Translations under genes and position numbers: made by a program
Notes under the pieces: generated by a model
What the model saw: the letters and a program-made list of their open reading frames with translations, nothing else
Databases searched by the model: none
What the model was told of the DNA's origin: nothing
Assembly: GCA_037042915.1 (NCBI GenBank)
Contig: CM073193.1
Coordinates: 682,001-746,000 of the forward strand
Source of the DNA: Auricularia sp. M13
Taxonomy: Eukaryota; Basidiomycota; Agaricomycetes; Auriculariales; Auriculariaceae
Length of the DNA stretch: 64,000 nt
Reading direction: 5' to 3'
Shown here: positions 38,001-59,689 of the stretch, piece by piece
Numbering within the stretch: the stretch's first letter is position 1
Layout of the letters: every line of letters starts with the position of its first letter

Positions 38001-39567
38001 GGTCAATCTCTTACCACGTTCGTTCTGCAAATTGTACGCCCATCTCTACATTCTCATGAGTAGATAGACGTCTTACTTCGTGCAGTTGGGTTCTGGGCTT
38101 GGATCGCTGTGGGCTGTGGCTCTGCTGGAGGTAGGCCTCAGTGCTCTTCACCATTTAGCTATAATTCACCCTGAGCCAGATGTTCCGCGGAGTCGGTGGT
38201 TACACATTCAACCCATACGGCGTCATCGCTTTACTTTCCCTCAGCTCTCTTCCGTTATTCTATTTCATATATTACAACCCCAAATTCTTCGTCCTCGCGC
38301 TTTTGGCACTCAATAGCGCCGGAGTGCTCGTTGTCGGCGAGTGGATCAACGTCGAATACTATCATCGGCCGTTTGACACTCCCATTTTCCGCGCTGGTGA
38401 GCATCTCTTCACGATTGTTTTCGTGCTCCCGTCTCAACTCCTTCTTAGGCAAGGCATTCACCGCGCTGGGCATCGCGCTCGGTATCGCCGTGATATTCCA
38501 GGTGTTCATCTTGCGCAACCCGGCGAGGCGGACGTTGCGCAAGAATTTGGCAGCGTTGACCTTCTCCATGCTCAGCTATTACAGTGAGTCTTCGGATTGG
38601 CAGGGACCATAATTATCCCAAGCTCATTGGTGCCCTGCGTAGCTCTGTTCCAGGCATATGTTAAGGCCGTGGTGCCGGCCAGCCTGGACGACCATCGACC
38701 GCCCAAAGCAGCAATCCTTCGTGTCCAGAAGGAGCTCATACACCGTGAGCAGAAGATGCAGCAGCAGATCATCGAGCTCGGACCACTTCTCATGTACGGC
38801 CCGGCTCGTCATACCTGTGTGTTCGTCGACTGACCATCATCCCCCGGGCCAAAGGTTCGCACGGGCCGAGGTCGACTTTGCCACGCCGTTCCGCGCAGAC
38901 CTCGCAGTGAGGATCATCCGCTCTCATCAGGTCATTCTCGGTACGAGCTGGCATGGAAGCTCGCCCGTCTCAAGCTAAGTCTTTCGCCGCCAGATCGTCT
39001 GAGGGAGGCGCGCAACTCGGTGGGCAGCGAGACCGTCCCGGCGATCATCACGCGCGAATTCAGCTCGCGCCTCCTCCCTTATCGTAAACGGAGCGTGCGA
39101 CTCGCCAAGGCGTCGCTGTTCACGTGTGCGTCGTCGCTAGCGAGCAAGTCGCCGCTGCCCAGGGAAACGCCTGCGCGTATGTTTTTGCGGGGTATGTCGC
39201 TGAATATCGATCTCGTTCATGTTTGACTGCGGTTCTGATTCTCTCGTTGCCTAAACAGACAATCTGAGCGATTTCCTTCACGACGCGATGGTGATCAGCT
39301 CCCATATCTCGCGCACTGAACAAGGGAAAGAGACTATTCTCAATGGCGAATTGACGTAAGTCCATAATCTGGTAGTGATCTGTGTTTGCCCTGCTGATGA
39401 CCTTCAGACGATATTGGGCCTATGTGATGAGTGTTACGAGCACAAGTGAACAGTTAATTGTGAGCCCGTGTGTTTTCTATGGAGCGTTGAGTGCTGATTG
39501 AATCATTCAGGCTTTGGAGGACACTTGCCACGAAATGTTCGGCGACCTAGACTCGATGCTCACTTAG
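35032..39567 (+). CDS. ARAE_2/DUF2421 family membrane transporter, one apparent frameshift
   Basis: Large multi-exon gene of the fungal family with an N-terminal six-helix module (ARAE_2_N, putative ER transporter) and a C-terminal DUF2421 module, related to FUSC-type exporters and yeast Bre4. Exons at the 5' end: 35,032-35,224, 35,355-35,416, 35,474-35,540, 35,616-35,692, 35,816-35,872, 35,928-36,120, a 24-nt micro-exon 36,176-36,199 (ADFGFLSQ) and 36,265-36,325. Later exons include 37,029-37,432 and 37,476-37,945 and continue to the stop at 39,567. Motifs: RRFDDLSPFPMALSS, LGVNVLVWPRSSEKELR, and the second membrane block FRGVGGYTFNPYGVIAL. Near 36,585-36,592 the frame jumps: FLVFRRCV ends one frame and VANGLDAIS continues in another, consistent with an extra TG in tgtgtgtgg. 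The gene may thus be broken, or the base count wrong. Its 3' half is copied in blocks B and C. Confidence 0.75.
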
Positions 39568-39651
39568 ACCTCCCTAATCCCTACAAGTACAACTGTATCC
39601 TACGCAGTAGAATTTCCATCGGTGTGTAATATGACGGCGTGAACCAGCAGG

Positions 39652-40804
39652 CTACTCGGTCTCGGGCGAGATGACATTTGTTTCCTTGCCGTCGACCAGA
39701 ACTTCCTTCATGGTGATCGCGCTCAGGCTTCGAATATCCTCCCAGGACTCACCGGAAAAGAATGCGCTGTGGGGTGTGATGACCAACCTCCCGGTAAGCC
39801 ATTCTTCCTTGTTGCGATACGCCTGGATGAGCGGATGGACAACAGCATCTGCTTGTCTAATAGCACTGGTGTCCTCCTCCGGCAGGACGTCGAGTCCGGC
39901 GCCGGCCAGGTGGTTATCGCGCAGGACGGCCTCAAGACCGTCCAAGTCGATAATAGCGCCGCGGCCAGTGTTTACGATAACGCCACCAGGAGGCATAAGA
40001 CGCAGCAGGCGCTCGTTGACGAGATTGCGTGTCTGCTTGGTGAGCGGCGTGTGGATGGACAGCGTGTGGCTCTGGCGGAAGAGCGACTCGACGCTGGGCG
40101 CGCGGGCCACGCCCAGGGCGCGGTCGACGCCGTTCTTGAGATAGGGGTCGTAGAAGAGGACGCGCCATCCGAAGGCACGTGCGCGCAGCGCGACGGCGGT
40201 GCCGATGCGGCCGAGGCCGAGGATGCCGAACGTTCTCGGCGCGGGTGGCGGCGGCGGGTCCGCGAGAATGAGCTCAGCGGGGGGTGGGGGGCCCTGCGGG
40301 CGCTGGAGCAGCGGCGTGTGCAGGAACTGCCAGGGCGCAGGCGGGTTGCGGCGCTGTAGGTCGTGGTGCAGCAGGATGCCGCGTCTGAGCGCGAGCGCGA
40401 GTGCGACCGCGTGATCGGCGACTTCGGTCGTGCCATAATCTCGCGATCTCTGTCAGCGTTCGCGTTTATTGGCGATGGGGCGCCCGTTGCTCACCGGGGA
40501 TGTTGCAGACTTTGACGCCGCGTGCCGCGAGCTCGTCGCGGGCGAGACGGTCATATCCAACGCCCATCCGCACCACAACCTTTAATTTCGGAAAGAGCGT
40601 GATATCCTCTGGCTTGAGAAAGCGACGAAAGATGAAGAGGCCCTCGGTGCGCTGCCTGATATCCTCTGGGACCGTCGAAGTCGGCGCATCCAACCCGATG
40701 CGCGCAGAAACGTATGTGTACCCGGTGTTGGCAAAGACCGTGTCTTCGAGAACACTCTCCGTGTACATTCCCTCCAGCTCGAGCACAACTGGTGAGACAG
40801 ACAT
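39652..40804 (-). CDS. D-isomer-specific 2-hydroxyacid dehydrogenase (CtBP/SerA superfamily)
   Basis: NAD-dependent enzyme that reduces 2-oxoacids to D-2-hydroxyacids or, in CtBP-type members, acts as a corepressor; substrate unknown. Two exons, 40,495-40,804 and 39,652-40,439, give about 365 residues. The splice joins VCNIP|DYGTTEVADHAVALAL, the family's conserved junction between catalytic and nucleotide-binding domains. The acceptor used is the third AG of the candidate sequence, chosen because only it keeps frame. The Rossmann motif is GLGRIG; then NTGRGAIID with the catalytic Arg, LDVLPEED with the catalytic Glu and ITPHSAFFS with the catalytic His. The start MSVSPVVLELEG is at 40,804. 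This is the only one of three copies in the window with all catalytic residues. It converges tail to tail with the transporter, whose stop is 84 bp away. Confidence 0.88.
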
Positions 40805-41380
40805 GGTGGAAAGACGACAAGAGGTACGCAGCGGCTTTCCGGGCCGGAGAAGGTTAATTGGACCTTGAAATGACTGCCGTCGCTGGATTGCCCTTTTCCC
40901 CTCTGCGCCGTCTTTCTCGTATTTTATCCTATCTTATCCTCGTGCATATCGCCCTCTAAATCGCGATTTTTCTGTAACGAGAAGTCTTGCGCCCGCCTCG
41001 CCCACGATGTGTACACGCCACATGAGTAGAAAACGCGACTCGCACCTGCTACTCCAAACTTTTATAAGCGCTGTGGCTTTCCCGATATTGCATGCTTCGC
41101 CCCTCGCGTCCGTGCGCTACCGACTACGTCCAGCCTGCTCGTTGCGTGTTGACTCGATAGGATGCCTGCAATCCCGCACAACAGCAAATGTATTCTGCGC
41201 TCTGCCTGTTGCGACCTGCGTCGGTTACGGTCGCACATTGAAAGACCAGTATCTCTTCGTGAACACATGTCAGGAATTCTCTGTTTACGAGTTACGAACT
41301 ACGACGACGGGAAGAGTTTCGACAATGAGAGCAGCTGCATAGACAACGAAGAGCATAGAACTTGCGATGAACACCACGCG
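40805..41380. other. Intergenic: dehydrogenase promoter and receptor 3' flank, block A
   Basis: Both neighbours are on the minus strand, so this holds the dehydrogenase promoter on the left and the 3' untranslated region of the NACHT-ankyrin gene on the right. It is copied as 51,694-52,290 in block B and 61,329-61,923 in block C, with only scattered changes. No gene seen. Confidence 0.6.
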
Positions 41381-44300
41381 TCAATCCTGTGTAGTGCTCG
41401 TAAGCCTCAGTTCGTTCAGGATGAGGGACTCACAGTTGGCTTCTGCGACAACGTCGATGATCGCAGGGTTTCCTGAGGAGTCACCCGCCTTCAAAGCCTC
41501 CCAGCTCGAAAGCATTGCCACAAAGGCTTCGTGTCCCTTCTTCTGTGCGATATCCCGCGGTGTATCTCCATTGTTGTTGCGTACTGTGGGAGACGCCCCG
41601 TGCCGAAGAAGTAACCAACGGGCTACGTCAAAATGCCCTCGATAAGCTGCCAGATGCAACGCAGTGCGTCCCTCGAAATCCGAGTGCAGGATGTCACAGC
41701 CCTTGTCCGACAGAAGAGAACAGACACCGGAGTGTCCTCCGTCCGCAGCAAAGAGCGGAGCCGTCCACCCATCTTCATCAACTAAGGTGAGAGAGGCCCC
41801 ATGGTGAATGAGCAATTTGACAACTTCCGTGTGGCCATTCCAAGCTGCACAATGGAGCGGTGTGTGCAGATGTTTGTTCGGGGCGTCCACATAGGCGCCG
41901 CGTTGGATGAGAAGTCGTGCAACTTCGAGATGTCCCGAATTTGCGGCCAGGTGCAACGGAGTGCGTCCCTCGAAATCCGAGTGCAGGATGTCACTGCCCT
42001 TGTCCAACAGAAGGGAGCAGACATCGAAGTGCCCTCCGTCTGCAGCAAAGAGCAGAGCTGTCCATCCATCCTCATCAACTAAGGTGAGAGAGGCCCCGTG
42101 GTGAATGAGCAACTCGACAGCTTCCGTACGGCCTTTCCAAGCTGCGTGATGGAGCGGTGTGTGCAGAAGTTTGTTCGGGGCGTCCACAGTTGCGCCGCGT
42201 TGGAGGAGAAGCTGTGCAACTCCGAGATGCCCAGAATCCGCAGCCAGATGTAACGCAGTGCGTCCGTCCGAATCCGAGTGCTGGATGTCACAGCCCTTGT
42301 CCAGCAGGAGATAACAGACATCGGAGTGTCCTCCATCCGCAGCAAAGAGCAGAGCTGTCCGCCCATCTTCATTAACTAAGGCCCTGTGGTGAATGAGCAG
42401 CTCAGCAACTTCCGTGTGGCCCTTCCAAGCTGCACGATGGAGCGGTGTTTGCAGAAATCTGTTTGGGGCGTCCACAGTGGCGCCACGTTGGATGAGAAGC
42501 TGTGCAACTCCGAGGTGTCCCAAATCCGCGGCCACATGCAACACAGTGTTGCTGTCGGAATCCGAGTGCAGGACGTCACAGCCCTCGTCGAGCAGGAGAG
42601 AACAGACATCGGAGTGCCCTCCATCTGCAGCAAAGAGCAGAGCGGTCCACCCATCTTCATCAACTAGGGTGAGATGGGCCCCATGGCGAATGAGCAACTT
42701 GACAGCTTCCATGTGGCCTTTCCAAGCTGCACGATGGAGCGGCGTGCACAGAAGTTTGTTCGGGGCGTCCACAAGGGCACCGCGTTGGATGAGAGGACGT
42801 GCAATTCCGAGGTGTCCAGAATCCGCAGCCAGATGCAACGCAGTGCGTCCGTCCGAATTCGAGTGGAGGATGTCACAGCCCTTGTCCAACAGGACGGAAC
42901 AAACATCGAAGTGCCCATGGTCTGCAGCGTAGTGCAGTGGGGTATCCCCGTCTTCATCAGTCGACACGACAGCCTGGGGATGTTGCGCTAGAAGCAGCTC
43001 CACGACATCCATGTGACCATTTGCTGCCGCAAGATGAAGTGGGGTACGTCCGGTATTGTCAGGGTTTCCGCGACTGTTTTTTGGCACGTCTACGCCATGT
43101 GTCAGAAACCATGATACAAGGGGCAGCTTCCCCCACACGCAAGCTGCCTCAAAATCGGTGTAGTAGCCCTCAGCTCTGAATGCGAACAGTTTTTTGAGCG
43201 TGGCTGGAGCAGGTGTGAGGTACTCCGCCAGGACATCTTTGCCATTGCTGTCGATGAGCTCATTGACGTGGCACACCCATCTCAATTTGGCGTAGGCGGT
43301 GAGATCGAGGGGCAGGTTGTACTCCAAGACGGTCAGGCAAACGCGAAGCCAGGTCATGTGAGCTGTTCTGGTATCGAACCCGTAGGAACGAACGAGCGAA
43401 GGACGGGATCGACACGCTGCCGACTGAAGAAACTCCACAATGGAAAGGTGCATAAAGCGGACGACCTTTTTGCCGCTTTCGTCCTCCGTGATACGCATCA
43501 GGGCGGGTAGGCGAGACAGAACGAAATCCTCGTGCCCGGGGATGTCGTCCAAGACATGAGGTAAAAGGAGTCGCTGATGCGGCGGGTCCGTCCGAGGCAC
43601 GTCGTCAAGACAAGGAAACTCGAAGGCAACAAGCAGCTCGGCCACTTGACGAGGAGATAGGCTTTGCGCCGATACAGCCAGACATTGAAGAACGTGGGAC
43701 ACCGAATTGATGACGGTCTCTGAGGTGGAGAAGCCTTCAATGATCGTCCGATATGTATGATCAAGTGTTTGCGGAATTTCCTGCAGCATCTTCTCGACAT
43801 TGTGCGGGATAGCCTGGCGGAGACGGTCGAGATGAAGGGAAGCCCAGAGGAACCTACAGTAGGTAAGGTTCGCGGTCATAGTGGTCAATCACGTAGCTCA
43901 CATTCCCTCCGCTTTTGCTTCGAGGATGCGACCAACATTGTCCTTCCGTTCGACAGACCAATCGAATTCGGCGAGCCGTAGATTAATATACTGCCTAAGC
44001 AGTTCGTGGTGATGGGAACTGTCATTGAGATGTAGGCGATGCGCGGCATGCTCCTCCATGTACTGGACCAAGTCAGAGTTTTCCCGGCGGCTGGTAACGA
44101 TTATGCGAGCGCCTGTGCCTCTCAGAGCATTCAGAAGAGATTGCACTGCTTTCCATCGTTCAGCTAGTTTGGGGCACTCGTCTAGTGCGTCGATGGCAAG
44201 AATTCTTGGCGCAGCAGCGAGCATCGCTGTTGCTGCGTCACGAAGGACCTCTTCGGACGCCGTTTTCTCGTAGCCTTTTTTGCGAGCGCTAATAAGAGCA

Positions 44301-46183
44301 GGAGGATATCCACCCAAGCGCTGAGCCAGCTGACAGACCACTGCAGCCAGGAAGTCTCGAATCGTGGGCTGTCCATTGCGCATGTCAAAGTGGAAGAAAA
44401 CGCGTTGAACTGGCGGCACATGTTGAATTATCGCCGAGCTTTGAGCGCGATGAGGCCAGTCTCAGAGGGGGCAGCAGAATTACTCACAGAAGAACGCTCT
44501 TCCCACTGCCGGCTAAACAAGGATGAACGTGAATCACAAAACCTGCGGAAGGACGTACGATCCGATGAAATCCAATACAGGCCAGCCCTCGATCCCTTCT
44601 CAGCATTCTTCCATTCGGCAAATTTGTCGTCGAAGAACCAGTCAGGCGTGATCGTGGCCATGGCCTGAAGCTCGCGCTGCCTGCCGTCGATGTCCCGCCC
44701 GATAGCCAGCCACTTTTCGAAGTCATCACTGTCTGCATGTTGATTGTTCTGTGAGACGGGCAAGACTGCAGCAGCCACATAATCGGCGTACCATTGGCCT
44801 TCTGGAATGAATCGGCAAATTGGTGCACTAGCTTGCTGACACCATCGACCTTGTCGTGTCCACGCAAGATCTCTAAATTGTTCTCGCGAACACCAGCATT
44901 GGTCGAAAATCCCAACGCTAGCTGCAAGACCAATTAGATACGATGGCGGGCGGACGTCGAGAGAACGTACCTTGATGGTATCTTTGGACTCATCCAGCGC
45001 GCGCCTCTCGTTGGCGATGATACCATTGGCAGTGGCGACCGCGATGAAGCGTTTGAGCCACGGTGTTGCACGGAGAAGATATAGCCGTAGGAGCGCGCGC
45101 AGCAGCACCCTTCGGCAATCGATATCAACGACGCCTCCTCCGCTTTAGATAAAGGACATACCGCAGGAAGTCTTGGGCTTGTTTGTCCAGTGCATCGCCA
45201 GCGCCGATACGGGGACGCCAGTGCTGCAGCAACACGTCCCAAGATGACTGGATTGTCGTCTGCAGTTCCTTTACGCTGTCATTCGACGCATGGTAATTCT
45301 GCCGGTGGCCCTACGCGTTGAGCCGAGTCCGTTATATCTCGAGCGATCACGCGTACCTCAACATGATTACAGATCTGCAACAAGGTTTGCCCGACTGCCT
45401 TGACTGGTGCTTCTGTAGTGCCGTCCGCCGCGTTGACTACTCCAGCTAGCAGCAGCTTAATGCCGTCCCGTGCGGTATCCCAAGACGAGATCCGTTTCCT
45501 AATCGTGCACTGTCAGCTGCAGCACGACCACGCCCGCAGACTGAAGCAACCCACCCAAGCTCCGAGGTGTCTTCCTCCAAGCCTGGCGGCCGAGGAAACT
45601 TGATCTTGCCGTCGCCCTCGACAAGCAAGCTATGCCTATCCTTGATCTGATAATGTCGACGAGGTTTGACGGTGCAGTTGGATGCAGACGAAATGCTCGC
45701 TCACCTGGAGAATGGATTCAAACGCATTGATCGCGTCTTTGCAATCGCCTCGCATCTTGCTCAGCTGGTATCTCTTGGTGAACCACCACCCATTCTTCTC
45801 CGTATCTTCCATATCAGCCGCGCATCGTGTAAGCACCCTGTAGATAGCAAGGTAAGCGAGGGCTTCTCGCAGTAGCCTGCGACCGTAACGCTCACGTTGT
45901 CGCGATGTCGACTACTGGCTGCGCGAAGAGAGGAAGATCGGTCATGGCCTTGCGCGTGCAACTGGAGCACACGGCGCATTGTAGACCATCCGCTGCCTGG
46001 AACAACTGGTCATATTCCTCTGTGTGGCGTTTCATATTCTAAACGTTCCGTCAGTGCGCGCTGAAACCCGAGAGCGGCAAGACGTACTTTAGCAACTGCT
46101 CCAAACCGCCTCACTGCGTCCTGAAGCTTAACCACGTCCTCTGGCAGCCTAGCAGCCTGCGGACTCGCGGCGGCGCTCGACAT
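41381..46183 (-). CDS. NACHT-ankyrin STAND (NLR-like) receptor, 16 ankyrin repeats
   Basis: Twelve exons: 46,088-46,183, 45,896-46,038, 45,705-45,837, 45,555-45,646, 45,357-45,498, 45,162-45,298, 44,971-45,109, 44,792-44,921, 44,559-44,732, 44,488-44,512, 43,902-44,438 and 41,381-43,853. Spliced length is 4,221 nt, exactly 1,406 codons plus stop. Residues 1-390 form a helical N-terminal region of no family I can assign. The NACHT domain has Walker A DPGSGKSVLL at 395-404, split over a 25-nt micro-exon, Walker B ILAIDALDEC at 483-492, and ARIIVTSRR near 514. From about residue 850 to 1,370 are 16 ankyrin repeats arranged as repeating sets of three. A 36-residue tail ends the protein. STAND proteins oligomerise on ligand binding; in fungi many act in non-self recognition, which I infer here. 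The start is the first ATG of the frame that keeps all phases. Intact. Confidence 0.92.
41640..42965 (-). repeat. In-gene tandem repeat of a 3-ankyrin module (297/288 bp)
   Basis: The landmark actaaggtgagagaggcccc and its variants occur at 41,781, 42,078, 42,375 and 42,663, giving spacings of 297, 297 and 288 bp. Each module encodes three ankyrin repeats with distinct signatures: DGWTALLFAADGGH, DGRTALHLAADSGH and TPLHRAAWKGHTE. The 288-bp spacing reflects a small in-frame deletion (HHRALVNEDG in place of HHGASLTLVDEDG). Modules are far more alike than typical ankyrin repeats. Confidence 0.93.
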
Positions 46184-47274
46184 GGTGGGTGGGAAAGAGC
46201 GACGTACCAATCCCGTTGACAAGCCGGTTGCGGTGCAGTAGCGGGACACGCCTGCGGCGCATGCAGATAGGCGCCTTCGTGTTCTTCGGGTCTCCTTACC
46301 GCAGGGCGCCTTTAAACCGGCCAACGGACAGACGCACTCGCTGCCTTTTACAGTCGTATGCACAAGCTAGAGCAGTACTTTGCCAGCCCATTTTACACAA
46401 GCGTCGTGACGAGCGGTTCGCGTTCAATATGCTGAGCGCCGTGGCCCGCCACCGAGCCATCGGCAGCTCTCGGAAGCTGAAGGGTCAGTCTGGGAGCGCC
46501 AGAGGTCCACGAGCGTCTAGAGTTGCTTGACAGCTGGTCCCATGACCGCTCGAGCAGTTGAAACCCGGAAAGAGGACGAAATCACGTAGCCAGCATCAAG
46601 TAGTGCCATCCACTGGCAGAGTCATCCAAGGTTCATTATGAGACAGCCAGTGATTGTACAAGGCAGAAAGATTCGCGACCGGCGTTCCAGAGTCCGTCAT
46701 CGCGAGCTCGGAGTCACAAGTCCGTGGTCATGGGCGAAAAGAACACTGAAACAGAAGGCGAGCAGGTGCGCCGGGATTAATCGCAGACCGCAGTTGAGTA
46801 ACCCCAGCCTGAGTGTCGAGTTTAACGCTGACGGACGGCATGACCGTAGGTCGTCATGAAGTTTTCGGTGCAGTAAGAAGCCCGTGCAATCTGAATCAAT
46901 CGGTGCCACGCTCAGCTGTTACGATACAAGGAAGAAGATACTAACGATGATCGATGAGGCTTGAGCAATACGCAACGCAGACACCGGAGACGCTCACGCA
47001 CATCTATGATTAATTTATCCTAGAACCTCAGACGAACTGGACGTTGTGCGCGATGAGGAAGCTCGTCGGGCAGGCTCCAGGCGTCGAGCAACTAATCGGG
47101 GAACATGGCTGGCGCGACGACGGTGCGAAAGGAGTTCATGCACCGCTTGAGGCGGGGTGCGGTGCCGGCGTCGACGTTGAACAGCGCGAGCGGGACGCGC
47201 ACGGTCGACGGCCAGGTGCACATGGCCGTGACGAGCTTCGGGGAGGCCGCGAAGCCCTCGACGGCTTACGCCCT
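46184..47274. other. Upstream region of the block A receptor
   Basis: Contains the receptor promoter; the part from 46,184 to about 46,900 is well conserved with 56,140-56,700 in block B, for example agctctcggaagctgaaggg. On the minus strand 47,099-47,270 has an open piece ending FRTVVAPAMFPD and a stop; it reads like a protein end but I cannot assign it, and it is absent from block B. Confidence 0.5.
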
Positions 47275-48475
47275 TCACATCCCGTCCTCCAACCAGCGCA
47301 CGACCTCCCGCTGCCTCTCTTCCAACGCCAACACCTCCAGTCCCAGCGTACCGTACCGCCTGCCCTCCGACAGCGGGAGGTCCAAGCCCTCAACGCGTGC
47401 GTCGAGGATGATGCCGTGCTTGGAGTGGATGCGCACGCTGACGGCGCCCCACGCAAAGTCGCGCGCCATTGCGCGCGTGAACTCGGGGCGTCTGGCCGTA
47501 GATCCAGTCCCACGACTGCGCGGTCGCGATGCGTGAGTGAACCAGCGCGCGGATGGACGGGGAGAATACAGCACGACGCACCTTGAGCTCGGCCGCCATT
47601 TCGTTAATTTGTGGGTGGTGCTGGGATCTACAAGCTCTGGCTGCGCATGCGCTGGAAGTCAGACATAGACCATGGCGTGTAAGGAGCTCGGACTTCAGCA
47701 TTGAGCCCAAACCTGTCGTTGAAGCTCTGGGCCATAGCGCGGACGAAGTTGTCGTGCGTCGCGTTGGGCGTCCGCAAGTGCAATTTCGTCACGGGCGCGT
47801 ATAGGCGCGCGCACGGATTCGACGCCTTTCGTGACGAGAGACCTACAACAGCAACCGTCAGCATCCCGCACTGCATAGCGAGAAGGAATGAAGGAGAGCG
47901 CGCCTTTTCATTCTGCAGCACCTCGCCGAGCTCTTCAAGCGCGCTGGCAAGCAGCATCGTTCCGTGGTGGTACGCGCGCCGCCCCGCGATCTTGTATGCC
48001 GAGCCGGAGACCTTGCGTTCGCGCCCGTTGCCGTCAACGACGACGACGTCGTTGCACGCGTTCATGCGCACATTCAGCACGCCGAGCATGTCGCGCACGG
48101 TCGAACACCGCGCGCGGAAGGTGTATGCTGTAGTTGACGTTGCCTACGTCCTGGCAGCGCGTATAAATACGCGCCTGCTAGTTGCAAATGATACAAGCAG
48201 ACTTACAGCTTATAGGGTACACCGCCCCACCGCTGCCACGCCGCCGCGCCAGCCAAATACCGTGTGCGCGTTTTGCTGGGAGGTTCACCTCTTTCCATGG
48301 ATTCTGAACGGCGCAATCAGATCACGCGAAACGCGCTGGGCGGGGACGCACGGACTCCTTGGTTCCCGCCTATAATAACGCTGGGCGTGTTGCGGTACAA
48401 GAACAGCGTCCGAAGATCGGGTTCCGCGTTATTCAAGAGCCTATACGCAAGAAAATGGCGCAGCGGGAGGTTCAT
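47275..48475 (-). pseudogene. Lipoate-protein ligase-like gene, decayed, block A
   Basis: Remains of an LplA/Aim22-type lipoate-protein ligase, which attaches lipoate to mitochondrial 2-oxoacid dehydrogenases. From the ATG at 48,475: MNLPLRHFLAYRLLNN, SVIIGGNQ, then after an intron NPWKEVNL, then NYSIHLPR, the core VSGSAYKIAGRRAYHHGTML, VTKLHLRTPNATHDNFVRA, and the C-terminal SWDWIYGQTPEFTRAMARDFA to a stop at 47,275. Order matches the family. Lesions: the expected RRxSGGGxVYHD motif reads ARRRGSGGAVYPI before a damaged junction, and a deletion of about 28 nt after FDRAR (near 48,100) shifts frame relative to the block B copy. There is also an in-frame stop after the QRMRSQSL segment at 47,628. 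Confidence 0.8.
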
Positions 48476-48834
48476 TGAATACCAAACGTGAATGTAGAGG
48501 AGAAAAGCCGCAAATAGTAAGTATTAGCGGGCTGCAGGCTACAGAGCGAACGCACCAATCTTCCGTTGCAAGATTTGCATACGGTACCGTGCTCTTAGAC
48601 AAAATAATTTGAGATGGGCGCAAAAGGGAAGCGCTATGTATCCGCGTGCTCAATGCGCGTCGGACGCATGTCATCGAGGTCAGGGTCAAGATCTGCGAGC
48701 TTGTGAACCGCCAGTTGCCGCTATGCTTTTCTTTCCCGTCTCTGCACCCGCACACTCGGTTTGCAGCCAGCCTGTCGTGCGTTGCAGACCTCTGCTTCAA
48801 TTCAGACAGCGCCGCGTAAGGTCTCGCAAATAAT

Positions 48835-49860
48835 TAAACGCGTACAACCTGGCGGTCAACCCGCGAACCTCGTCGGCCATTCGCCCTTGGTACCGAGACG
48901 GACGGCGGCGTCGTGAACCCCGCGCAGCGCAGCGCTCCGGAGGGGATTGGGCCTACTGTCGGCCTGATGTCGCGGCCGGGCGTCATCCCCGACTCGCTGC
49001 CCCAGGATCTCATCAGAGTCGCGACGTACTCCCTCAATGTCATTTTCGAGGGTCGTGCGCATGAAATAACCCGTATGTCCAGAGGCGATATGCGGCGTTC
49101 CTGGCTGACAAGGACGCGCTCAAGGGTGTACGATTTGACAACCCAGGCTGAGCTTCTGGCAGTGGGGGAACGCGGTCATGCGGGCGCAACTGCTCGAGGT
49201 TGTTGAGCTGATTCGAGAGGTCGGCGCGACGGTGGTCAACGGCACCGGCTTGTGCAACTGGCAGACGATCGTGCGCCCGGACGGCTAGAACTGGTTCGCA
49301 CACTTCACTACACCTCTGCCGTCATCGACCGAACGACCGCAGGGACTACGCCTCCGCCAGCGGCTTCCCTGACGAATCGAAGTAAACATACATCATAGCG
49401 GACTCCTACAACCTCGCGGCGTACTTCGCCGAGGTCGACAAGACGCCCTGTCGTGGACATCGCACGGTCTGACATCGACAACGCCCGCACGGAGGGCGGC
49501 GTGCCTGGCGTGCAACTCGCATTCACCTCGGGCCAGAACGGGTTCCTCGCCTCGCTCGCCACGCGGGGCGTCCGTGACGCGACGTACTGGCAAGCGCTCG
49601 CGTTCTGCCAGCGCGCAATGCGCGAGAACGGCCTTGCTGCTGCCCTGAGAACCCAATGCGTCCCAGGCGATGTGTTGCTCGCGCCGTCGAACGCCGCGCA
49701 GGCGGGGTACCCCGTGGTGCCGATCCCCGCGGTGTGCACAAGGAGAGCGGCATGCCCTTCGGGATCGTGCTGATGGGCACGCCGAAGCGAGGGCGTGCTG
49801 GTGCGGTCAACAACAGAGTGCGCCCTTTTACCTGCGCGGGCCAGGTATTGTTGACATATC
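48835..49860 (+). pseudogene. Amidase (amidase signature family) remnant, block A
   Basis: Pieces of a fungal amidase in the right order but in several frames: NPAQRSAPEGIGPTVGLMSR and PGVIPDS (48,912-48,995; the TETDGG just before is in another frame), YAAFLADKDALKGVRF (about 49,090-49,135), WGNAVMRAQLLEVVELIRE, GLCNWQTIVRPDG followed by an in-frame TAG, LAFTSGQNGFLASLATRGV (49,510-49,567), CQRAMRENG and HKESGMPFGIVLMG (about 49,738-49,780). Functional members hydrolyse carboxamides with a Ser-cisSer-Lys triad; the N-terminal part with the Lys is not seen. Stops and frame changes make it non-functional. Its right end joins the transporter fragment of block B at about 49,860. Confidence 0.75.
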
Positions 49861-49861
49861 T

Positions 49862-50780
49862 CTGTAGATGCAGCCCGTTCCGAGAAACTATCGCCTGCCA
49901 AGGAGGCCGGTAACGCGCCTCATCAGTGCGGCGTAGAGGGCGCATTCGACGAGTTGGCATTGGTGCAGCAGCACATCCGGAGATCTACGCGGCATGGGCA
50001 CGACCAGAAGCTGCGCATGCACCTACCGCAGACGTCCATGCGTACGACATGCGCCGGCGCGCTGAGCGGTGCGATTACCCCGTTGGACGCAGCGGGAGCG
50101 CCTGCACGTCGACCACGACGAGGTGTTCGGGAACGACGAGACAGGGCACACGCCAAAAGAGCTTGCCGAGCACGCCGAAATTGCGTCGACTCGCTGCTCG
50201 TTTGTTTTCGCTATGGGGTGCGGAATATGCTTCTCGCATTTAGTTATGGTATCTGACCTTGCGCTTTGCAGAATTTACGTGCAACAATTGGGACGGTATC
50301 ATCGCGACGCGGTCCGGTTCCAGCCTGGGACCGTCGGCAAACATCCGCCGCGCAGAATATAGGTCCATTTCCTCCAGTCGCTTCAGCGCCCGCGACAGAC
50401 GGCTTGGGCTAACTTGAACGCCACACTGCCCGTTGCCAAATTTGCAGGGTCGGACGTCGAGGACAGCGCGGAGAACGGCGACGACGGCGAGCTCAGCTTC
50501 CGAGAGGCCATGGCGTTACTGGAGAATCGCACATATACCCGCAAGCCGAAGACTGCGTGGCAGCGCTTCAAGGCTTTCGAGGACTCCCTGCGCTCGTCGA
50601 CCAGCATCGTCGCTCTCAAAACGGCTGCGGGCGCTATGGCTTTTACTATGTTGTTATTCCCACCGCGGACGAAGCAATTCGTCATCAGTAACGCCTTCAT
50701 GTCCTCGCGTTCGCCGTCAGCATAGGACCGAAATTAGGTTCGTCTGATGCACACTGTTGTTGAGGATCTGTATTCATTGA
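49862..50780 (+). pseudogene. Transporter 3' fragment, block B
   Basis: Copy of the ARAE_2/DUF2421 transporter starting at the exon that begins at 37,029 in the full gene and ending in the intron after 37,945. Recognisable parts: EKLSPAKEAGN, AHTPKELAEHAE, IYVQQLGRYHRDAVRFQPGT, then FREAMALLENRTYTRKPKTA and FEDSLRSSTSI. Relative to the full gene, the Gln codon after KHPPRRI is a TAG stop, and several indels break frame. Both the first ~600 codons and the second membrane block are missing, so this is a passenger fragment of the duplication. Confidence 0.85.
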
Positions 50781-50854
50781 CACTTGTATAAAGGACAGTC
50801 TCTTGCCACATGCGTTTTTCGAATCGTATGTCCGTACTCTGTCAACATTCTGGA

Positions 50855-51693
50855 CAACAGCGTCCACTTGTTCGAAGGCACTCGTATCCTTCCCCAGCAG
50901 GACGTCGAGTCCAGCGCCGGCGATGTGGTCATCGCGTAGAACAGCCTCAAGATCATCAAGGCTGATAATGGCGCCGCGGCCAGTGTTTACGATGACGCCG
51001 CCTGGAGGCATGAGGCGGACCAGGCGCTCGTTGATGAGATTCTGCGGCTGGCGTGTGGATGGACACCGTATGGCTCTGGCGCAAGAGTGACTCGATTCTG
51101 GGCGCGCGGGCCAGGGCGGGCTCGACGCCGTTCTCGAGGTAGGGGTCGAAGAAGAGGATGCGCCATCCGAAGGCACGTGCGCGCAGCGCGACGGCGGTGC
51201 CGATGCGGCCGAGGCCTAGGATGCTGAACGTCTGCGGCGTGGGCGGCGGCGGCGGGTCCGCGAGAATGAGCTCGGCGGGCGGCGCCGCTGCAGGTCGTGG
51301 TGCAGCAGGATGCCGCGTCTGAGCGCGAGCGCGAGCGCTACCGCGTGATCGGCGACTTCGGTCGTGCCATAATCTCGCGATCTCTGTCAGCGTCCGCGTT
51401 CGTTGGAGATGCGGCGCCCGTTGCTCATCGGGGATGTTGCAGACTTGGACGCCGCGCGCCGCGAGACCCAACGCCCATCCGCACTACGACATTTAAATTC
51501 GGGAAGAGCGAGAGCTTGAGAAAAGTCCCTCTGTGTGCTGCCTGATATCCTCTGGGACGGTCGAAGTCGGCGCATCCAGCTCGATGCGCGCAGAAACGTA
51601 TGTGTACCCGGTGTAAGCGAAGACCGTCGTGTCTTCGAGGACGCTCTCCGTGTACATTCCGTCGAGCTCGAGCACAACCGGTGAGGCTGACAT
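50855..51693 (-). pseudogene. 2-hydroxyacid dehydrogenase copy, block B, broken
   Basis: Second dehydrogenase copy, start ATG at 51,693 (MSASPVVLELDG). Exon 1 has lost the segment equivalent to FLKPEDITLFPKLKVVVRMG and runs out of frame after about 60 codons. The Rossmann GLGRIG is present, but an 11-nt deletion after HTVSIHTP shifts frame before INERLVRLMPPGG. Homology to the intact gene ends near 50,855, before the catalytic His motif, where the reading continues into transporter-derived DNA (QVDAVVQNVDRVRTYDSKN). The same chimeric junction is in block C. Confidence 0.85.
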
Positions 51694-52290
51694 GGTGGAA
51701 GGACGACGAGAGCTATGTTGCGGCTTTTCGGGCCATAGAAGGCTAATAGGAGGTTGACTGCCGTCGCTGGATTGCTGTCACGGTTTTCCCCTCTGCACCT
51801 TCCTTTTCGTATCCTATACTGTCGTATCCTCGTGCATATATCCACCTCCGTCGCCCTCTACATCGCGATTTTTCTGTAACGAGAAGTCTTGCGCCCGGCT
51901 CGCCCACGATCTGTACGCGCCAGAAAATGCGACTCGCACCTGCTACTCCAAACTTTTATGAGCGCTGTGGCTTTCCCGATATTCCATGCTTCACCCCTCG
52001 GGACCGTGCGCTACTATATAGATTGTGTGGTGTCCGCCGCCGACTCACCTGCTCGTTGCGTGTTGACTCGATAGGATGCTTCCATTCCCGTGCGACAGCA
52101 AATGTATTTTGTGGTGGGCCTGATTCGAGCCGCGTCGGTTACAGTCGCACGTTGGATGATATCTCTTCGTGAACACATGTCAGGAATTCTCAGTTTACGA
52201 GTTACAAATTACGACGACAGGAAGAGTTTCGACAATGAGAGCATCTGCATAGACGACGAAGAGCATACAACTTGCGATGAACACCACGCG
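51694..52290. other. Intergenic: dehydrogenase promoter and receptor 3' flank, block B
   Basis: Copy of 40,805-41,380 with small changes. No gene seen. Confidence 0.6.
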
Positions 52291-55200
52291 TCAATCCTGT
52301 GTAATGCTCGTAAGCCTCAGTTCGTTCAGGATGAGGGACTCACAGTTGGCTTCTGCGACAACGTCGACGATCGCAGGGTTTCCTGAGGAGTCACCCGCCG
52401 TCACCGTCGAAGTCTCCCACTCCGAAAGCATAGTCACAAACGCGTCGTGTCCCTGCTTCTGTGCGATATCCCGCGGTGTATCGCCATTGTTGTTGCGTAC
52501 TGTGGGAGACGCCCCGTGTCGAAGAAGTAACCAATGGGCTACGTCAAAATGCCCTCGATAAGCTGCCAGATGCAACGCAGTGCGTCCCTCGAAATCCGAG
52601 TGCAGGATGTCACAGCCCTGGTCCGACAGAAGAGAACAGACACCGGAGTGTCCTCCGTCCGCAGCAAAGAGCGGAGCCGTCCACCCATCTTCATCAACTA
52701 AGGTGAGAGAGGCCCCATGGTGAATGAGCAATTTGACAACTTCCGTGTGGCCATTCCAAGCTGCAAGATGGAGCGGTGTTTGCAGGCGTTTATTTGGGGC
52801 ATCCACAGTGGCGCCGCGTTGGATGAGAAGCTGTGCAACTCCGAGGTGTCCAAACTTTGCGGCCGGGTGCAACGCAGTGTGGCCATCGGAATCCAAGTGC
52901 TGGATGTCACTGCCCTTGTCCAGCAGAAGAGAACAGACATCGGAGTGCCCATTATTTGCAGCGAAGTGAAGTACGGTAGCCCCGAATTCAGTGATTGACC
53001 TGACAGCCTGAGGATAGGGAGCTAGAAGCAGCTCCACGACATCCATGTGACCAAACAGTGCCGCAAGATGAAGAGGGTTTCCGCGGCTGTTGGTCACGTC
53101 TACGCCATGTGTGAGAAACCATGATACAAGGGGCAGCTGCCCCCACACGCAGGCTGCCTCAAAATTACTGAAGTAGCCCTCAGCTCTGAATGCGAACTGG
53201 TTTTTGAGCGCGGCTGGAGCAGGTGTGAGGTACTCCACCAGGACATCTTTGCCATTGCTGTCGATGAGCTCATTGACGTGACACACCCAGAGCAATTTCG
53301 CGTAGGCGGTGAGATCGAGGGGCAGGTTGTTCTCCAAGACGGTCAGGCAAACGCGAAGCCACGTCGTGTGGGCCGTGCTGGAATCGAATGCAATACACGG
53401 CAGGCGCGATCGACACACCTCTGACTGGAGGTAGTCGACGACGGAAAGGTGAATAAAGCGGACAACCTTTCTACCCTCTTCATCCTCTGTGATACGCAGG
53501 ACGTCAGGTAGATGGGATAGAATAGAATCCTCGAGCTCGTGAACAGCGGACGGGACGGTGCGCAGGATCAGTCGTTTGTACGGTGGGTTTGTCGGCGAGT
53601 TGCCCAGAGGCGAATACACGAATATGGCGACCAGCTCAGCGACTTCGCGAGGAGAAAGGCTGCGGCGCGACAGAGCCAAACACTGAAGAACGTGGGACAC
53701 GTGATTCATCATGGCCGGCGATTCGCTGAAACCCTCGATGATCGAGTGGTAGGTCTTATCGAGTCCCTGTGGCATTTCCAGGAGCATCTCCTGGAAAACC
53801 TGCCCCAGAGCGGGGCGTAGGCGCTTCAGATGAAGGTAAACCCAAAGAAACCTGATAAAAGTCAGGTTGACATTCATAGTGATCCATGAGCTACTCACAT
53901 TCCCTCCGCGGATTCGTTAAGAATGCTTGCAACATTGACCTTGTCTTCAGCCAGCCACGAGACTTTAGTGAGCTGTGCATCGATGTATCGCCCGATGAGT
54001 TCGCGGTGATGATCACAGTCATTGAGATGAAGGCGATATGCGGCATGCTCGTACATGTAGTTGACCAAGTCAGGGTTTCCCCGGCGGCTTGTAACGATTA
54101 TGCGAGCGCCAGTGTTGCTGAGATCGTCCAGGAGAGATTGCACTGCTTTCCATCGTTCATCCAGGTCGGGGCACTCGTCTAGTGCATCGATGGCAAGAAT
54201 CCTCGGCGCAGCAACGAGCATCGCTATCGCTGCCTCACGAAGGACCTCTTCAGACGCCCGTTTCTCGTAGCCTTCTTTGCGAGCGCCGATGAGAGCAGGG
54301 GGGTATCCACCCAAGCGAAGAGCCAGCTGGAAGACCACTGCAGCCAGGAAGTCTCGAAGCTTGGGCTGTGCATCGCCGCGGCGCCTGTCAAAGTGAAAGA
54401 AAACGCGCTCTTTCTCCGGCAGATTCTTAACGATTGCCGAGCTACGACACTTGTGATGAGATCAGAATTCACATGATACGGCATAGCAACTCACAGAAGG
54501 ACACTCTTTCCGCTGCCAGCTATGCATGCATGAACGTGAGTCGAAAGGACCCCGATAATGGCGGGAAACGCACGATTGGCGGAAATCCAGTACACGCCCC
54601 TCTCCGATCCCTCTGCATCTTTCCACGCGGTAAATTTCTTGTCGAAGAACCAGTCAGGTGAGAGTGTCTCTATCTCTTGAAGTTCGCGCTGCCTGTCCTC
54701 GATCCACCCCACAGCCAGCCACTCTTCGAACTTCTTGCTGTCTATACGTTTGTGAGTCCATCTGTACCGAGACGAGTAAGAAAAAGGCGTACCCGAAGCC
54801 TGCTGGAATAAGACAGTAACCTCCTGCACAACCTTCGGCACAATCCCGTGAACTACAGCATTGGTATCAAGCTTTAACGCTTGCTACGGGGAATACTGAA
54901 CACAGGAGCGTGACCACGAGAAGATAACGTACGTCGAATATATCTCTGGCTTCCTCCAGTGCGCGTTTCTCGTTGGCAATGATACCATTGGCAGTGGCGA
55001 CCGCGATGAAGCGTTTGAGCCACGGTGTTGCTCGGAGAAGATATAGCCGTAGGAGCGCGCGCAGCAGCACCCTTCGGCAATCGATATCAACGACGCCTCC
55101 TCCGCTTTAGATAAAGGACATACCGCAGGAAGTCTTGGGCTTGTTTGTCCAGTGCATCGCCAGCGCCGATACGGGGACGCCAATGCTTCAGCAGCACGTC

Positions 55201-56139
55201 CCAAGATGACTGGATTCTCGTCTGCAATTCCTTTACGCTGTCATTCGACGCATGGTAATTCTGCCGGTGGCCGTATGCGTTGAGCCGAGTCCGTTATATC
55301 TCGAGCGATCACGCGTACCTCAACATGATTACAGATCTGCAACAAGGTTTGCCCGACTGCCTTGACTGGTGCTTCTGTAGTGCCGTCCGCCGCGTTGACT
55401 ACTCCAGCTAGCAGCAGCTTAATGCCGTCCCGTGCGGTATCCCAAGACGAGATCCGTTTCCTAATCGTGCACTGTCAGCTGCAGCACGACCACGCCCGCA
55501 GACTGAAACGACCCACCCAAGCTCCGAGCTATCTTCATCCCTGCCTGCCGGACAAGGGAACCTGATGTCGCCATCTTTCTCTATGAGCAAGCAGCGCCCG
55601 CCCTCGATCTGCTAACGATGTAAATGTTATGGCCCGATAAAACGAAGACGAAAGGGCACCTGGAGAATAGAGGCAAACGCCTCGATGGCGTCTTTGCAGT
55701 CGCCTCGCATCTTGCTCAGCTGGTATCTCTTGGTAAACCTCGACCCATTCTTCTCCATATCTTCCATATCAGCCGCGCATTGCTTGACCACTCTGTAGAT
55801 CGCAAGGTAAGTGAGGGCTTGCTCGCAGTAGTCTGTGACAGTAACGCTCACGTTGTCGCGATGTCGACTACTGGCTGCGCGAAGAGAGGAAGATCGGTCA
55901 TGGCCTTGCGCGTGCAACTGGAGCACACGGCGCATTGTAGACCATCCGCTGACTGGAACAACTGGTCATATTCCTCTGTGTGGCGTTTCATATTCTAAAC
56001 GTTCCGTCAGTGCGCGCTGAAACCCGAGAGCGGCAAGACGTACTTTAGCAACTGCTTCAAACTGCTTTACTGCGTCCTGAAGCTTGACTACGTCCTCGGG
56101 CAGCGTTGCAGCCTGCGGACCCGAGGCAGCGTTCGACAT
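52291..56139 (-). CDS. NACHT-ankyrin STAND (NLR-like) receptor, 7 ankyrin repeats
   Basis: Paralogue of the 41,381-46,183 gene with the same 12-exon structure: 56,044-56,139, 55,852-55,994, 55,660-55,792, 55,517-55,608, 55,319-55,460, 55,124-55,260, 54,933-55,071, 54,793-54,883, 54,574-54,741, 54,495-54,519, 53,899-54,441 and 52,291-53,851. Spliced length is 3,270 nt, exactly 1,089 codons plus stop. Every exon length difference from its paralogue is a multiple of three. Walker A is NPGSGKSVLL at 380-389; Walker B is ILAIDALDEC; the arginine-containing ARIIVTSRR follows. It carries 7 ankyrin repeats instead of 16; the missing nine correspond to three 3-repeat modules. Exons 8 and 9 are strongly diverged and shorter by 13 and 2 codons, while exons 1-7 and the last ankyrins are nearly identical to the paralogue. 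No lesions seen. Confidence 0.92.
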
Positions 56140-57360
56140 GGTGGGTTGGGAAAGAGAGAAGTACGAATCCCGATGACATGCCGGTTGCGGTGCAGTAGCG
56201 GGAAACGCGGGAAACGCACGCAGATAGACGCCTTGCAGTTCTTCAAGTCTTCTTTACGCAGCCTTTGAACCGGCCAACGGACGGACGCGCGCGCTACCTT
56301 TTGCAGTAGTATCCACGAGCTAGAGCAGCGCTGTGCCCGCCCATTGTACACAAGCTTCGCGACGAGTTTCGCGATGAATGTGCAGAGTGCCGCCACCGAG
56401 CCACCGGTAGCTCTCGGAAGCTGAAGGGTCAGTCTGGGAGCGTCAGAGGTCCACGAGCGTCTGGAGTTGATTGGCAGCTAATCCAATGACCGCGCAAGCA
56501 GTTGAAACCCGGCAAGAGTACGAAATCATGCACTGTAGTAGCCAGCATGAAGTACAGTCATTCAGAGTCCTCCGAGGCTCATTATTAGACCGCCAGTTGA
56601 TTTGACGACATTCAGAGAATTGCAACTGGTTCAAGAGCCTGTCAATGCGAGTCCGGAGTCACAAGTTCGTGATCATGGGCGAAAAGAGGAACACGAGCAG
56701 GCGCGCCGGGATTCACCGTCTCGCCCCGGAGAGTCTGAATCTGATATTTTCACGCGAATAACGGCGCGTTCAGCGCGCGCGGCACTGAAGGTTACCTTTA
56801 TGCTAGCGCCAAATACGCTCATGTGTAGCGGAAATGGGCCCGTAAATGTCGAAGACGAGCCCGCGGAATGCGCGACGACGGATCCCTACTATTCGCCGCA
56901 TCCCAGCCCACGGCATCGCGCTCTCCGACGTGCTCCCCGCGTGCATTATACTGAACGGAAGCCTGTTCCTATGGGATGTGAAACGCGCGAAGCATATGGC
57001 ATCCCGAACTGTTCACGCCGAAGTCATTGTGCCCAGGCTGAGCGTCTCCGGTGTCTGCGTTGCGTATTGCTCACGCCTCATCGTTAGTATCTTCTTGCTT
57101 GTATCGTTACAATTGAGCGCGGCACCGCTTGATTCGAATCGCACGGGCCGAGTCTTTACTGTACCAGAAACTGCATGACGACCTGAGGCCTGAGGTCCCG
57201 CTGTCCGTCGACAACAAACTCGATCCCCAAGCTGGGGTTGCTGCGACTGTCTATTCGGGATCTGCAGCTGCTGCTCATCCACGGGCTATAGATGAAATAT
57301 GCCCTGCGAAATCCCGGGGAATATCCTGGCATTGAGCGTGCGAAGAATTCGGCATACGAT
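56140..57360. other. Upstream region of the block B receptor
   Basis: Promoter side of the second receptor, homologous to 46,184-46,900 for about 600 bp, then diverged. The segment 56,830-57,340 differs from block A and includes open but unrecognised pieces. No gene supported. Confidence 0.45.
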
Positions 57361-58577
57361 TTATTGACTGCTTACGCCCTCTATCTCGTCTCCGAACCAG
57401 CGCACGATCGCCCGCTGCCTCTCGTCAAAGCCGTAACTTATCGTACCGCCTGCCCTCCAGCGGCGGAAGGTCCAAGCCCTCGACGCGTGCGTCGAGGATG
57501 ATGCCGTGCTTGGAGTGGATGCGCACGCTGACGGCGCACCACGCAAAGTCGCGCGCAATTGCGCGCGTGAACTCGGGGCGTCAGGCCGTAGAGCCAGTCC
57601 CACGACTGCGCGGTCGCGATGCGTGAGCGAACTAGCGCGCGGATGGACGGGGAGAATACAGCACGACGCACCTTGAGCTTGATCGTGATTTCTTTGATTT
57701 GTGGCGGAGGGGTCCACCAGTTCTGGCTGAACGCGCGCCGAGAGTCAGACACGCGTAAGGAAAGCATGCGCGGACACGAACCTTTGCGTCGAGCCCGAAC
57801 TTGTTGTTGAAGCTGTGCGTTATGGCGCGTACGAAGTTCTCGTGCGTCGCGTCGGGTGTCCACAAGTGCAGCTTGGTCACGGGCGCGCGCACTGATTCGA
57901 GGCGTTTCGTGACAAGGCCTAGGTACCGATGCAAACCACCGTCAGGATAAGATAAAATATTCACACAGCGCAAGAAGGAGAGCGTGCCTGTTACTATGCA
58001 GCACCTCGCCAAGCTCGCCCAACGCGCTCGCCGGGACTCCCGTGGTGGTACGCGCGCTGCCCCGTGATGTTGTACGCCGAGCCGGAGACCATGAACTCGC
58101 GTCCGTCGCTGTCGACAATGACGAGGTCGTTGCGCGCGTTCATGCGCGCGTTGCGCACGCCGAGCAGGTCGCGCACGGCGCGCTCGACGACGCGGCCCGT
58201 GCGCGCGCGATCGAACGCTGTGCGCGGCAGGTGGATGCTGTAGTTCGAGTTCCCGCGTCCTGAAAAATACGTGTAAGAGCGCACCTGCCAGTTGCAGATG
58301 ATACAAGCAAGCCTGGAGCTCACGTGGTAGACTGTGCCGCCGCCGCCGCCGTGCAAGCCATATACCGCGTGCGCGTTGTGCCGCGAGGTCCACCTCCTTC
58401 CATGGGTTCTACGGGACGCTATCAGACCATGCAAAACGCGCTGGGCAGGGACGTACGGATTTGGTTCCCACCTATGATCACGCTGGGCGCGTTGCGGTAC
58501 AAGAACAGCGTCGGCTGGTCGGGCTCGGCGTTCTTCAAGAGCCTATACCCAAGGAAATGGCACAGCGGGAGGTTCAT
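57361..58577 (-). pseudogene. Lipoate-protein ligase-like gene, decayed, block B
   Basis: Second copy, from MNLPLCHFLGYRLLKN at 58,577, through SVIIGGNQ, NPWKEVDL, the GGGGTVYH motif with a clean intron to DAGNSNYSIHLPR, FDRARTGRVVERAVRDLLGV (the part deleted in block A), MVSGSAYNITGQRAYHHG, VTKLHLWTPDATHENFVRA and SWDWLYGL to a stop at 57,361. Lesions differ from block A: frame is lost between NPWKEVDL and the glycine-rich motif, a 5-nt net loss follows AYHHG, and the expected Lys of VSGSAYKI-AGRR, which contacts lipoyl-AMP in this family, reads Asn. Confidence 0.8.
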
Positions 58578-58934
58578 TTGATACCAAACGCGGTTTAAGG
58601 TCGAAAACAGAGAGTATTAGCTGGCTGGAGGCTACAGAGTGAACGCCCCAAATTTCCGTTGCAAGATTTGCATACGGTACCGTGCTCTTAGACACAATAC
58701 TTTGAGACGGGCGCAAAAGGGAAGCGCTATATATCCGCGTGCTCAATGAGCCTCGGACGCATGTCGTCGAGCTCAGGGTCAAGATCTGAGAGCCTAACCG
58801 CAAGTTGCCGCTATGCTTTTCTTTCCCGTCTCTGCACCTGCACACTCGGTTTGCAGCCAGCCTGTCGTGCGTTGCAGACCTCTGCTTCAATTCACACCGC
58901 GCCGCGTAAGGTCTCGCAAATAATTACACGCGTA

Positions 58935-59689
58935 CAACCTGGCGGTCGACCCGCGAACCTCGTCGGCCATTCGCCCTTGGTACCGAGACGGACGGCGGCG
59001 TCGTGAACCCCGCGCAGCGCAGCGCTCTGGAGGGGATTAGGCCTACTGTCGGCCTGATGTCGCGGCCGGGCGTCATCCCCGACTCGCTGCGCTGCCTCAG
59101 GATATCATCAGAGTCGCGACGTGCTCCCTCAATGGCAGTTTCGAGATCGACCAGAGGGACAATCACAGTCTTGCGCATGAAATAACCCGGATGTCCAGAG
59201 GCGATATGCGGCTTTCCTGGCTGACAAGGACGCGCTCAAGGGTGTACGATTTGACAACCCAGGTTGAGCTTCTGGCAGTGGGGGAATGCGGTCATGCGGG
59301 CGCAGCTGCTCGAGGTTGTCGATCTGTTTCGAGACGCCGGCGCGACAGTGGTAAACAGTACCGAGCTGCCAACTGGCAGACGATCGTGAGCCCAAACGGC
59401 TGGAATTGGTGTGCACACTTCACTGCACCTCTGCCGTCATCGACTGAACGCCCGCAGGGACTACGACTCCGCCCGCGGCTTCCCCGATAAATCCAAGTAC
59501 ATACAGCATAGCGGACTCCTACAACCGCGCGGCGTACTTCGCCGACAACACACCCATCCGCTCGCTCGAGGACATCCCACAGTCCAACATCGACAACGCC
59601 CGCACGGAGGGCGGCGTGCCTGGCGTGCAACTCGCATTCACCTCGGGCCAGGACGGGTTCCTCGCCTCGCTCGCCACGCGGGGCGTCCG
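58935..59689 (+). pseudogene. Amidase remnant, block B, cut by the block C junction
   Basis: Second amidase copy: NPAQRSALEGIRPTVGLMSR with PGVIPDSL, GDMRLSWLTRTR region in a shifted frame, WGNAVMRAQLLEVVDLFRD, PNGWNWCAHFTAPLPSS without the TAG present in block A, DDIPQSNIDNARTEGGVPGV-like segment near 59,570-59,630, and LAFTSGQDGFLASLATRGV. It stops abruptly at about 59,689 where the transporter fragment of block C begins, so the C-terminal HKESGMPFG part is missing. Confidence 0.75.

Follow-up and report, generated by a model that had tools for sequence, protein, structure and literature searches.

That ankyrin NLRs of Podospora anserina vary in repeat number and show positive selection was reported in 2014, and the process as such is thus already known. 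In that survey, the repeat number in the two PNP_UDP/NACHT/ANK genes Pa_2_8180 and Pa_3_8560 varies among isolates from 7 to >16 (Dyrka et al. 2014, PMC4986451), and the positively selected positions of Pa_3_8560 are, with one exception, situated on the concave face. The survey defines a highly internally conserved (HIC) repeat as one whose internal identity exceeds 85% across a minimum of 100 aa. The HNWD genes of the same species (het-d, het-e and het-r) are described as NACHT NLRs with length-variable, recombining and diversifying sensor repeats that are 80-100% identical to each other (PMC12222747). For NLR clusters of the Sordariales, unequal crossing-over together with conversion has been proposed in the cited survey (PMC12258605).

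The two genes described here, A and B of Auricularia sp. M13, resemble the Podospora NACHT/ANK genes in having a NACHT-type ATPase followed by ankyrin repeats, in the length variation of these repeats and in the surface location of selected positions. They differ in the N-terminal domain and in that the repeat numbers listed for Podospora do not follow steps of three; moreover, the Podospora comparison is made among strains, and ours among copies within one genome. With the HNWD genes they share the length-variable, recombining and diversifying sensor next to a NACHT-type domain, whereas the HNWD proteins as described have a WD40 propeller of single repeats, a HET effector and a proven incompatibility function, and their repeats are more similar than the modules found here (PMC12222747). 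The preliminary description of the locus took Podospora HET-D/E as the model; the NACHT/ANK genes of that species are instead the closest precedent (PMC4986451). As in the Sordariales clusters, a few neighbouring NLRs are grouped together, but there the process was proposed from cluster statistics (PMC12258605), while in the present genome individual tracts can be seen, as can a recombinant gene; the lineage is probably also a different one. New here are the three-ankyrin block as the unit of change and the nested variation in gene number, and in the open-licence literature searched we recognised no paper that describes an NLR with a three-ankyrin module.

The window, i.e. the whole stretch of 64,000 nucleotides that was analyzed, corresponds to C1:682001-746000 in a 52.1-Mb genome of 14 contigs, and its features are listed in Table 1. 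Splicing at GT-AG sites gave an ATG-to-stop frame that was intact across the 12 exons in both A and B, which upholds the initial claim of two intact NLR-like receptors with all exons in frame. Spliced alignment with the first 585 residues of A proposed 11 introns in each of the paralogues A', C', C, E and F, with matching phases except for one intron in E; the alignments of D and D' were less clean, with 13 and 15 introns proposed. Introns this short and closely spaced would be in keeping with a basidiomycete. The P-loop domain was recognised by the Pfam model NPHP3_N (79.4 bits in A and 85.7 in B, cut-off 24.8), whereas the Pfam NACHT model stayed under its cut-off of 26.7 (A 23.7, B 21.7). 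The domain first described as NACHT is a NACHT/STAND-type P-loop ATPase that scores below the cut-off of the NACHT model itself. Both translations contain GSGKS and DALDEC, which we take to be motifs of STAND/NACHT-type ATPases. The ankyrin repeats gave Ank_2 matches with E 2e-156 in A and 1.2e-46 in B, and a PADLOC search gave a single weak match, STAND_TPR. Both proteins therefore carry two of the parts expected of a fungal NLR, a STAND/NACHT-type P-loop ATPase and a C-terminal superstructure-forming repeat (ANK, WD or TPR), the latter by Pfam and, in A, also by structure model. A and B are intact paralogues in a small tandem cluster, and probably STAND/NLR-type receptors of a filamentous fungus. 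The reading that we favour, and consider probable, is that these tandem receptors have an ankyrin sensor and an ATPase switch and that modules are recombined between the paralogues, with change on the binding face; that they respond to a ligand is what we infer.

Table 1. Features of the A/B locus, in window positions (reach: number of the 5000 permutations with a run as long)
Feature	Position	Strand	Remarks
Tandem unit with gene A	37030..49860	.	self-comparison, Pfam; bounds approximate
Tandem unit with gene B, ~10 kb	49866..59690	.	73-88% to neighbours in aligned stretches; bounds approximate
Gene A, NLR-like receptor	41381..46183	-	12 exons, 1406 aa; GT-AG splicing, Pfam, introns conserved in paralogues
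Parts of gene A			N-terminal region without family match, NACHT-type ATPase, 16 ankyrin repeats
Gene A nucleotide-binding domain	44087..44649	-	NPHP3_N match aa 366-521, E 4.5e-22; Walker A GSGKS; spans introns
Gene A ankyrin array	41474..43054	-	16 repeats = 1 + 4 modules of 3 + 3 terminal; TRF, motif, structure model
A module 1	42656..42952	-	297 bp
A module 2	42368..42655	-	288 bp, three codons shorter
A module 3	42071..42367	-	297 bp
A module 4	41774..42070	-	297 bp
Gene B, paralogue of A	52291..56139	-	12 exons, 1089 aa, 7 ankyrin repeats; GT-AG splicing, Pfam
Gene B nucleotide-binding domain	54084..54655	-	NPHP3_N match aa 354-508, E 5.1e-24; spans introns
Gene B ankyrin array	52390..53088	-	7 repeats = 1 + one module of 3 + 3 terminal
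B single module	52690..52986	-	297 bp
Conversion tract, 231-bp A/B-identical run	45315..45545	-	intron 4, exon 5, into intron 5; reach 0/5000
Second near-identical A/B stretch	45885..46100	-	intron 1/exon 2 region; two runs, 104 and 111 bp
145-bp A/B-identical run, array ends	41705..41849	-	reach 2/5000

Motif counting gave 16 repeats in A and, in B, six by pattern plus a motif-less first repeat. The excess of nine repeats equals three 99-aa modules, exactly as the preliminary description had stated, and the modules alone do not account for the total length difference of 317 aa. TRF detected one array (41649-42928, period 297, 4.3 copies, 83% matches). The tandem 297/288-bp module was thus recovered in size and arrangement, but the high identity ascribed to it was not, as the mean pairwise amino acid identity of modules within a gene is moderate, 75.3-77.9%, and the identity to the gene's own consensus is 84.8-87.0% (A, A' and C'). 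Compared with the 85% of the HIC definition, the pairwise value is too low and the consensus value lies about at the threshold. Among 53 units of 99 bp from A, B, A' and C', identity was 79.9% within the three repeat types and 52.1% between types, which shows that the three-ankyrin period is real; the first and the final repeat of every gene were excluded from these statistics, and C (near-identical to C') as well as D, D', E and F were used neither here nor in the selection analyses. An AlphaFold model of the last exon of A, made with an alignment of A and B only, predicted 16 helix pairs (pLDDT 80-97 for the most part), a cryptic helix pair ahead of the array (pLDDT 54-63) and residues 1-232, preceding the array, at pLDDT <50. 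The best solved structures for the array model in Foldseek were ankyrins and DARPins.

Close copies elsewhere in the genome change in the same steps. A' (L045, C1:5.010-5.020 Mb) is intact and in frame, with 1509 aa and 19 repeats, that is A plus one module, and C' (L046) is likewise intact and in frame, with 1496 aa and 19 repeats. C (L047) also has 19 repeats, counting three beyond its insertion; it is disrupted by two changes, a deletion of 1 bp and an insertion of 349 bp, and apart from these it matches C' at 99.2% over 4928 bp. The insertion lies within the ankyrin array of C (L047:1998-2346) and is not found in C'. Hence all repeat numbers (7, 16, 19, 19 and 19 in B, A, A', C' and C) equal 4+3n, with n = 1, 4, 5, 5 and 5, and an array consists of a first repeat, n three-ankyrin modules, with n differing between close copies (1, 4 or 5), and a three-repeat end. 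The equal number of modules in C and C' counts against a very fast turnover. A and A' differ by one module although their 3' flanks are 99.7% identical over 952 bp, which supports the modular gain and loss put forward initially more strongly than A and B do. The longest identical run of A and A' ahead of the arrays is 484 bp, and A' is without the nine-base deletion of A. The arrays themselves are not near-identical, with most A' units 85-95% identical to the best A unit. A palindromic insertion of ~790 bp with arms 95% complementary (L045:8261-9051) starts 23 bp past the A' stop and is absent at that place in A. Of the more distant paralogues, gene E (C1:4.55 Mb) has a two-ankyrin period of 198 bp in at least 3.9 copies (L040:2460-3240; the array runs past the sequence examined), and gene F is on C8.

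The surroundings of the two genes are repeated as well. The gene A unit includes ORFs for a 2-hydroxyacid dehydrogenase (E 2.3e-39) and a lipoyl-protein-ligase-like protein (E 2.9e-11), at window positions 39655-40452 and 47631-48143, and DNA similar to these stretches recurs further along the window. Positions 1-28945 hold ~2.9 tandem copies, 99.5-99.7% identical, of a ~10.02-kb unit with EXO84-like exocyst ORFs (Exo84_C E 5.1e-20, PH_EXO84 7.8e-10). An rDNA identity of this unit was rejected, as it gave no Rfam or tRNA match and has EXO84-like ORFs instead. Related DNA (67-84%) forms arrays of ~9.5-kb period at C1:7.80-7.85 Mb (at least about five copies) and C5:2.93-2.94 Mb (at least two), and is present also at C8:2.49 Mb. 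EXO84 is normally single-copy, and the repeated tandem amplification of an EXO84-like gene is odd.

Selection on the array was analyzed by counting and by codon models. In the counting test (NG86), repeat 1, the last repeat and the degenerate penultimate repeat were dropped and duplicate units merged, leaving 19/19, 14/15 and 14/15 units. At seven ankyrin surface positions dN was 0.36 vs. 0.095 elsewhere, a density matched by a fraction of 5e-5 of 20,000 random position sets. The dN/dS ratio was 0.67 at the surface vs. 0.36 elsewhere and <1 in every class, with dS also raised at the surface. For the codon model the repeat before the penultimate was dropped too, and 15 complete modules of A, B, A' and C' were fitted with a program of our own, using FastTree branch lengths under one scale. 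M2a was favoured over M1a with one tree (2dlnL 33.55, 14% of sites at dN/dS 3.9) and with three trees, one per repeat type (2dlnL 24.92, 18% of sites at dN/dS 3.2). Recombination inflates this test, as 82 of the 204 one-tree recombining null simulations (13/24, 37/100 and 32/80) exceeded 5.99; none reached 33.55, with the maximum of 31.97 near the observed value. Of the three-tree recombining nulls, 22 of 81 exceeded 5.99, and the largest value, 16.01, stayed short of 24.92. The one-tree nulls had fewer optimiser starts, and refitting the real data in this way gave the same values (33.62 and 24.92). With one tree, 10 of the 14 inferred sites fell in a surface set of 21 of the 99 positions (P 1.4e-5), and with three trees 11 of 17; we presume this set, taken from DARPin design, to represent the binding surface.

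The codon-by-codon dN/dS on aligned repeats that the preliminary description had suggested thus finds a class of sites at 3-4, mostly at ankyrin binding-surface positions, and amino acid change concentrates at the predicted binding face. Positive selection on the interaction surface, as in NLRs with HIC repeats, is in this way indicated by M2a over M1a with a recombination control, and the proposed diversifying selection stands on the codon model and not on counting alone, where the ratio stays below one. The counting result would also fit neutral tandem-repeat turnover in a growing gene family whose proteins do scaffold work rather than recognition, and so would the tandem duplication of a non-receptor gene, the EXO84-like unit, in the same region; recognition is moreover a function that we infer for A and B. 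Such turnover is nevertheless unlikely, considering a site class with dN/dS >3 that goes beyond both sets of recombining nulls and is clustered on the binding face, and frames that are intact in A, B, A' and C'.

Sequence exchange between the paralogues was evident from the distribution of identity. The alignment of A with B from exon 1 through intron 11 has 82.5% identity but includes identical runs of 231, 150, 111 and 104 bp; the run test was made by 5000 permutations of the A/B differences. The introns vary likewise, introns 1 and 6 being 100% identical and introns 3 and 10 about 61%, and protein constraint is therefore no explanation for the runs. A' is a mosaic. Its upstream part (L045:2001-3050) is 98-100% identical to B, while A is 79-84% identical in three windows that align over most of their length, and less before these. 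Downstream (L045:3601-5600) A' is 93-100% identical to A; in between (L045:3201-3600) its distance to A, B and C is about the same, and in L045:5601-6050 C is the nearer in two of three windows (92-93% vs. 86-90% for A). Judged by these identities, such a mosaic would be expected where a B-like gene has recombined unequally with an A-like one, together with smaller exchanges that involved C-like sequence. Single repeats have moved too: repeat 10 of A' is identical to repeat 13 of A, one module apart, repeats 9 and 15 of C' are identical, and the best unit matches between genes are often at unequal positions. Same-type identity is nearly equal within a gene (80.4%, 108 pairs) and between genes (79.7%, 339 pairs). 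Repeat units and whole gene halves are swapped among the paralogues by conversion and unequal crossing-over, and the concerted evolution that had been suggested is borne out by the units common to different genes and by the conversion tracts. That A and B are only 82.5% identical could suggest one ancient deletion or amplification, followed by separate evolution under purifying selection. We regard this as very improbable, since A and A' contradict it by their single-module difference next to a near-identical 3' flank (unless A' is an assembly error), and since the recently converted A/B stretches and the units best matched at unequal positions speak against it.

A' lies within the range of a second block on the same 9.4-Mb contig. 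Inverted copies of the segments 0.711-0.719, 0.812-0.815 and 0.950-0.953 Mb are present at 5.023-5.037, 4.889-4.902 and 4.754-4.757 Mb, with 91-99% identity. The block was sampled by probes over ~240 kb (C1:0.71-0.95 vs. 4.75-5.04 Mb) and is known at the probed places. Probes at 0.25 and 1.5 Mb gave only more distant matches, 75% on C2 and 80% at C1:8.07 Mb, respectively. A palindrome of the whole contig is thereby out, as a close mirror copy is lacking for 0.25 and 1.5 Mb but present, at 99%, for 0.95 Mb. The RNA polymerase subunit family occurs at three genomic places only, presumably the number expected for a haploid set, and a fully diploid assembly is for that reason unsupported. The 4.75-5.04 Mb block represents a second haplotype that was left unmerged or else a genuine inverted duplication, and we lean towards the haplotype because of the patchy identity and the presence or absence of B and of the insertions. 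That the assembly distorts the repeat counts and the block is an artefact, as the local inverted recurrence and the three RNA polymerase places might suggest, seems to us a far-fetched reading, since modules that mostly differ by 10-20% are unlikely to collapse, all counts fit 4+3n in open frames except in C, and a haplotype would make the comparison allelic and the case stronger.

The N-terminal region is conserved over six paralogues, at 40-82% identity to A. Attempts to name a domain yielded nothing usable. In a Pfam search up to E 10 the four matches of A were all below cut-off, the best E over the six paralogues was 0.013 (Spectrin), and a PDB profile search gave 0 matches. Searching the genome with the Goodbye model was uninformative, since it matched nowhere and the prokaryote controls were silent too. 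A region in front of the NACHT domain is shared with the basidiomycete BaMLKL, Goodbye and HeLo-like NLRs as described (PMC9815663), but Goodbye reached E 0.05, below significance, in one of the six paralogues, and the resemblance in helix pattern is an impression. From its conservation the region is a candidate new domain; the 2014 survey had annotations for only 13% of the N-termini of basidiomycete NLRs (PMC4986451).

In the favoured reading of A and B as receptors with recombining modules, the ankyrin solenoid would act as sensor and the NACHT-type ATPase as switch, with the N-terminal region as a presumed effector or adaptor. Binding of a ligand by the variable ankyrin face would open the ATPase switch, the N-terminal region would then signal, and a defence or incompatibility response would follow, a putative role in non-self recognition in which module recombination may give new specificities. 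Possibly, and we offer this tentatively as somewhat less than an even chance, the evolving unit is a higher-order module of three ankyrins (cap + n x 3 + cap), in which each repeat type has its own variable surface positions and in which modules and receptor halves are shuffled between tandem genes and two divergent haplotypes at one locus. If so, the two-ankyrin 198-bp module of gene E means that the unit size would be lineage-specific.

Fungal NLRs are models for the gain of new receptor specificities. Five closely related copies in one genome, with sensor lengths that change in threes, conversion tracts and a recombinant gene, make the claim of module shuffling testable, and A and B provide a natural case of a receptor rebuilt by recombination.
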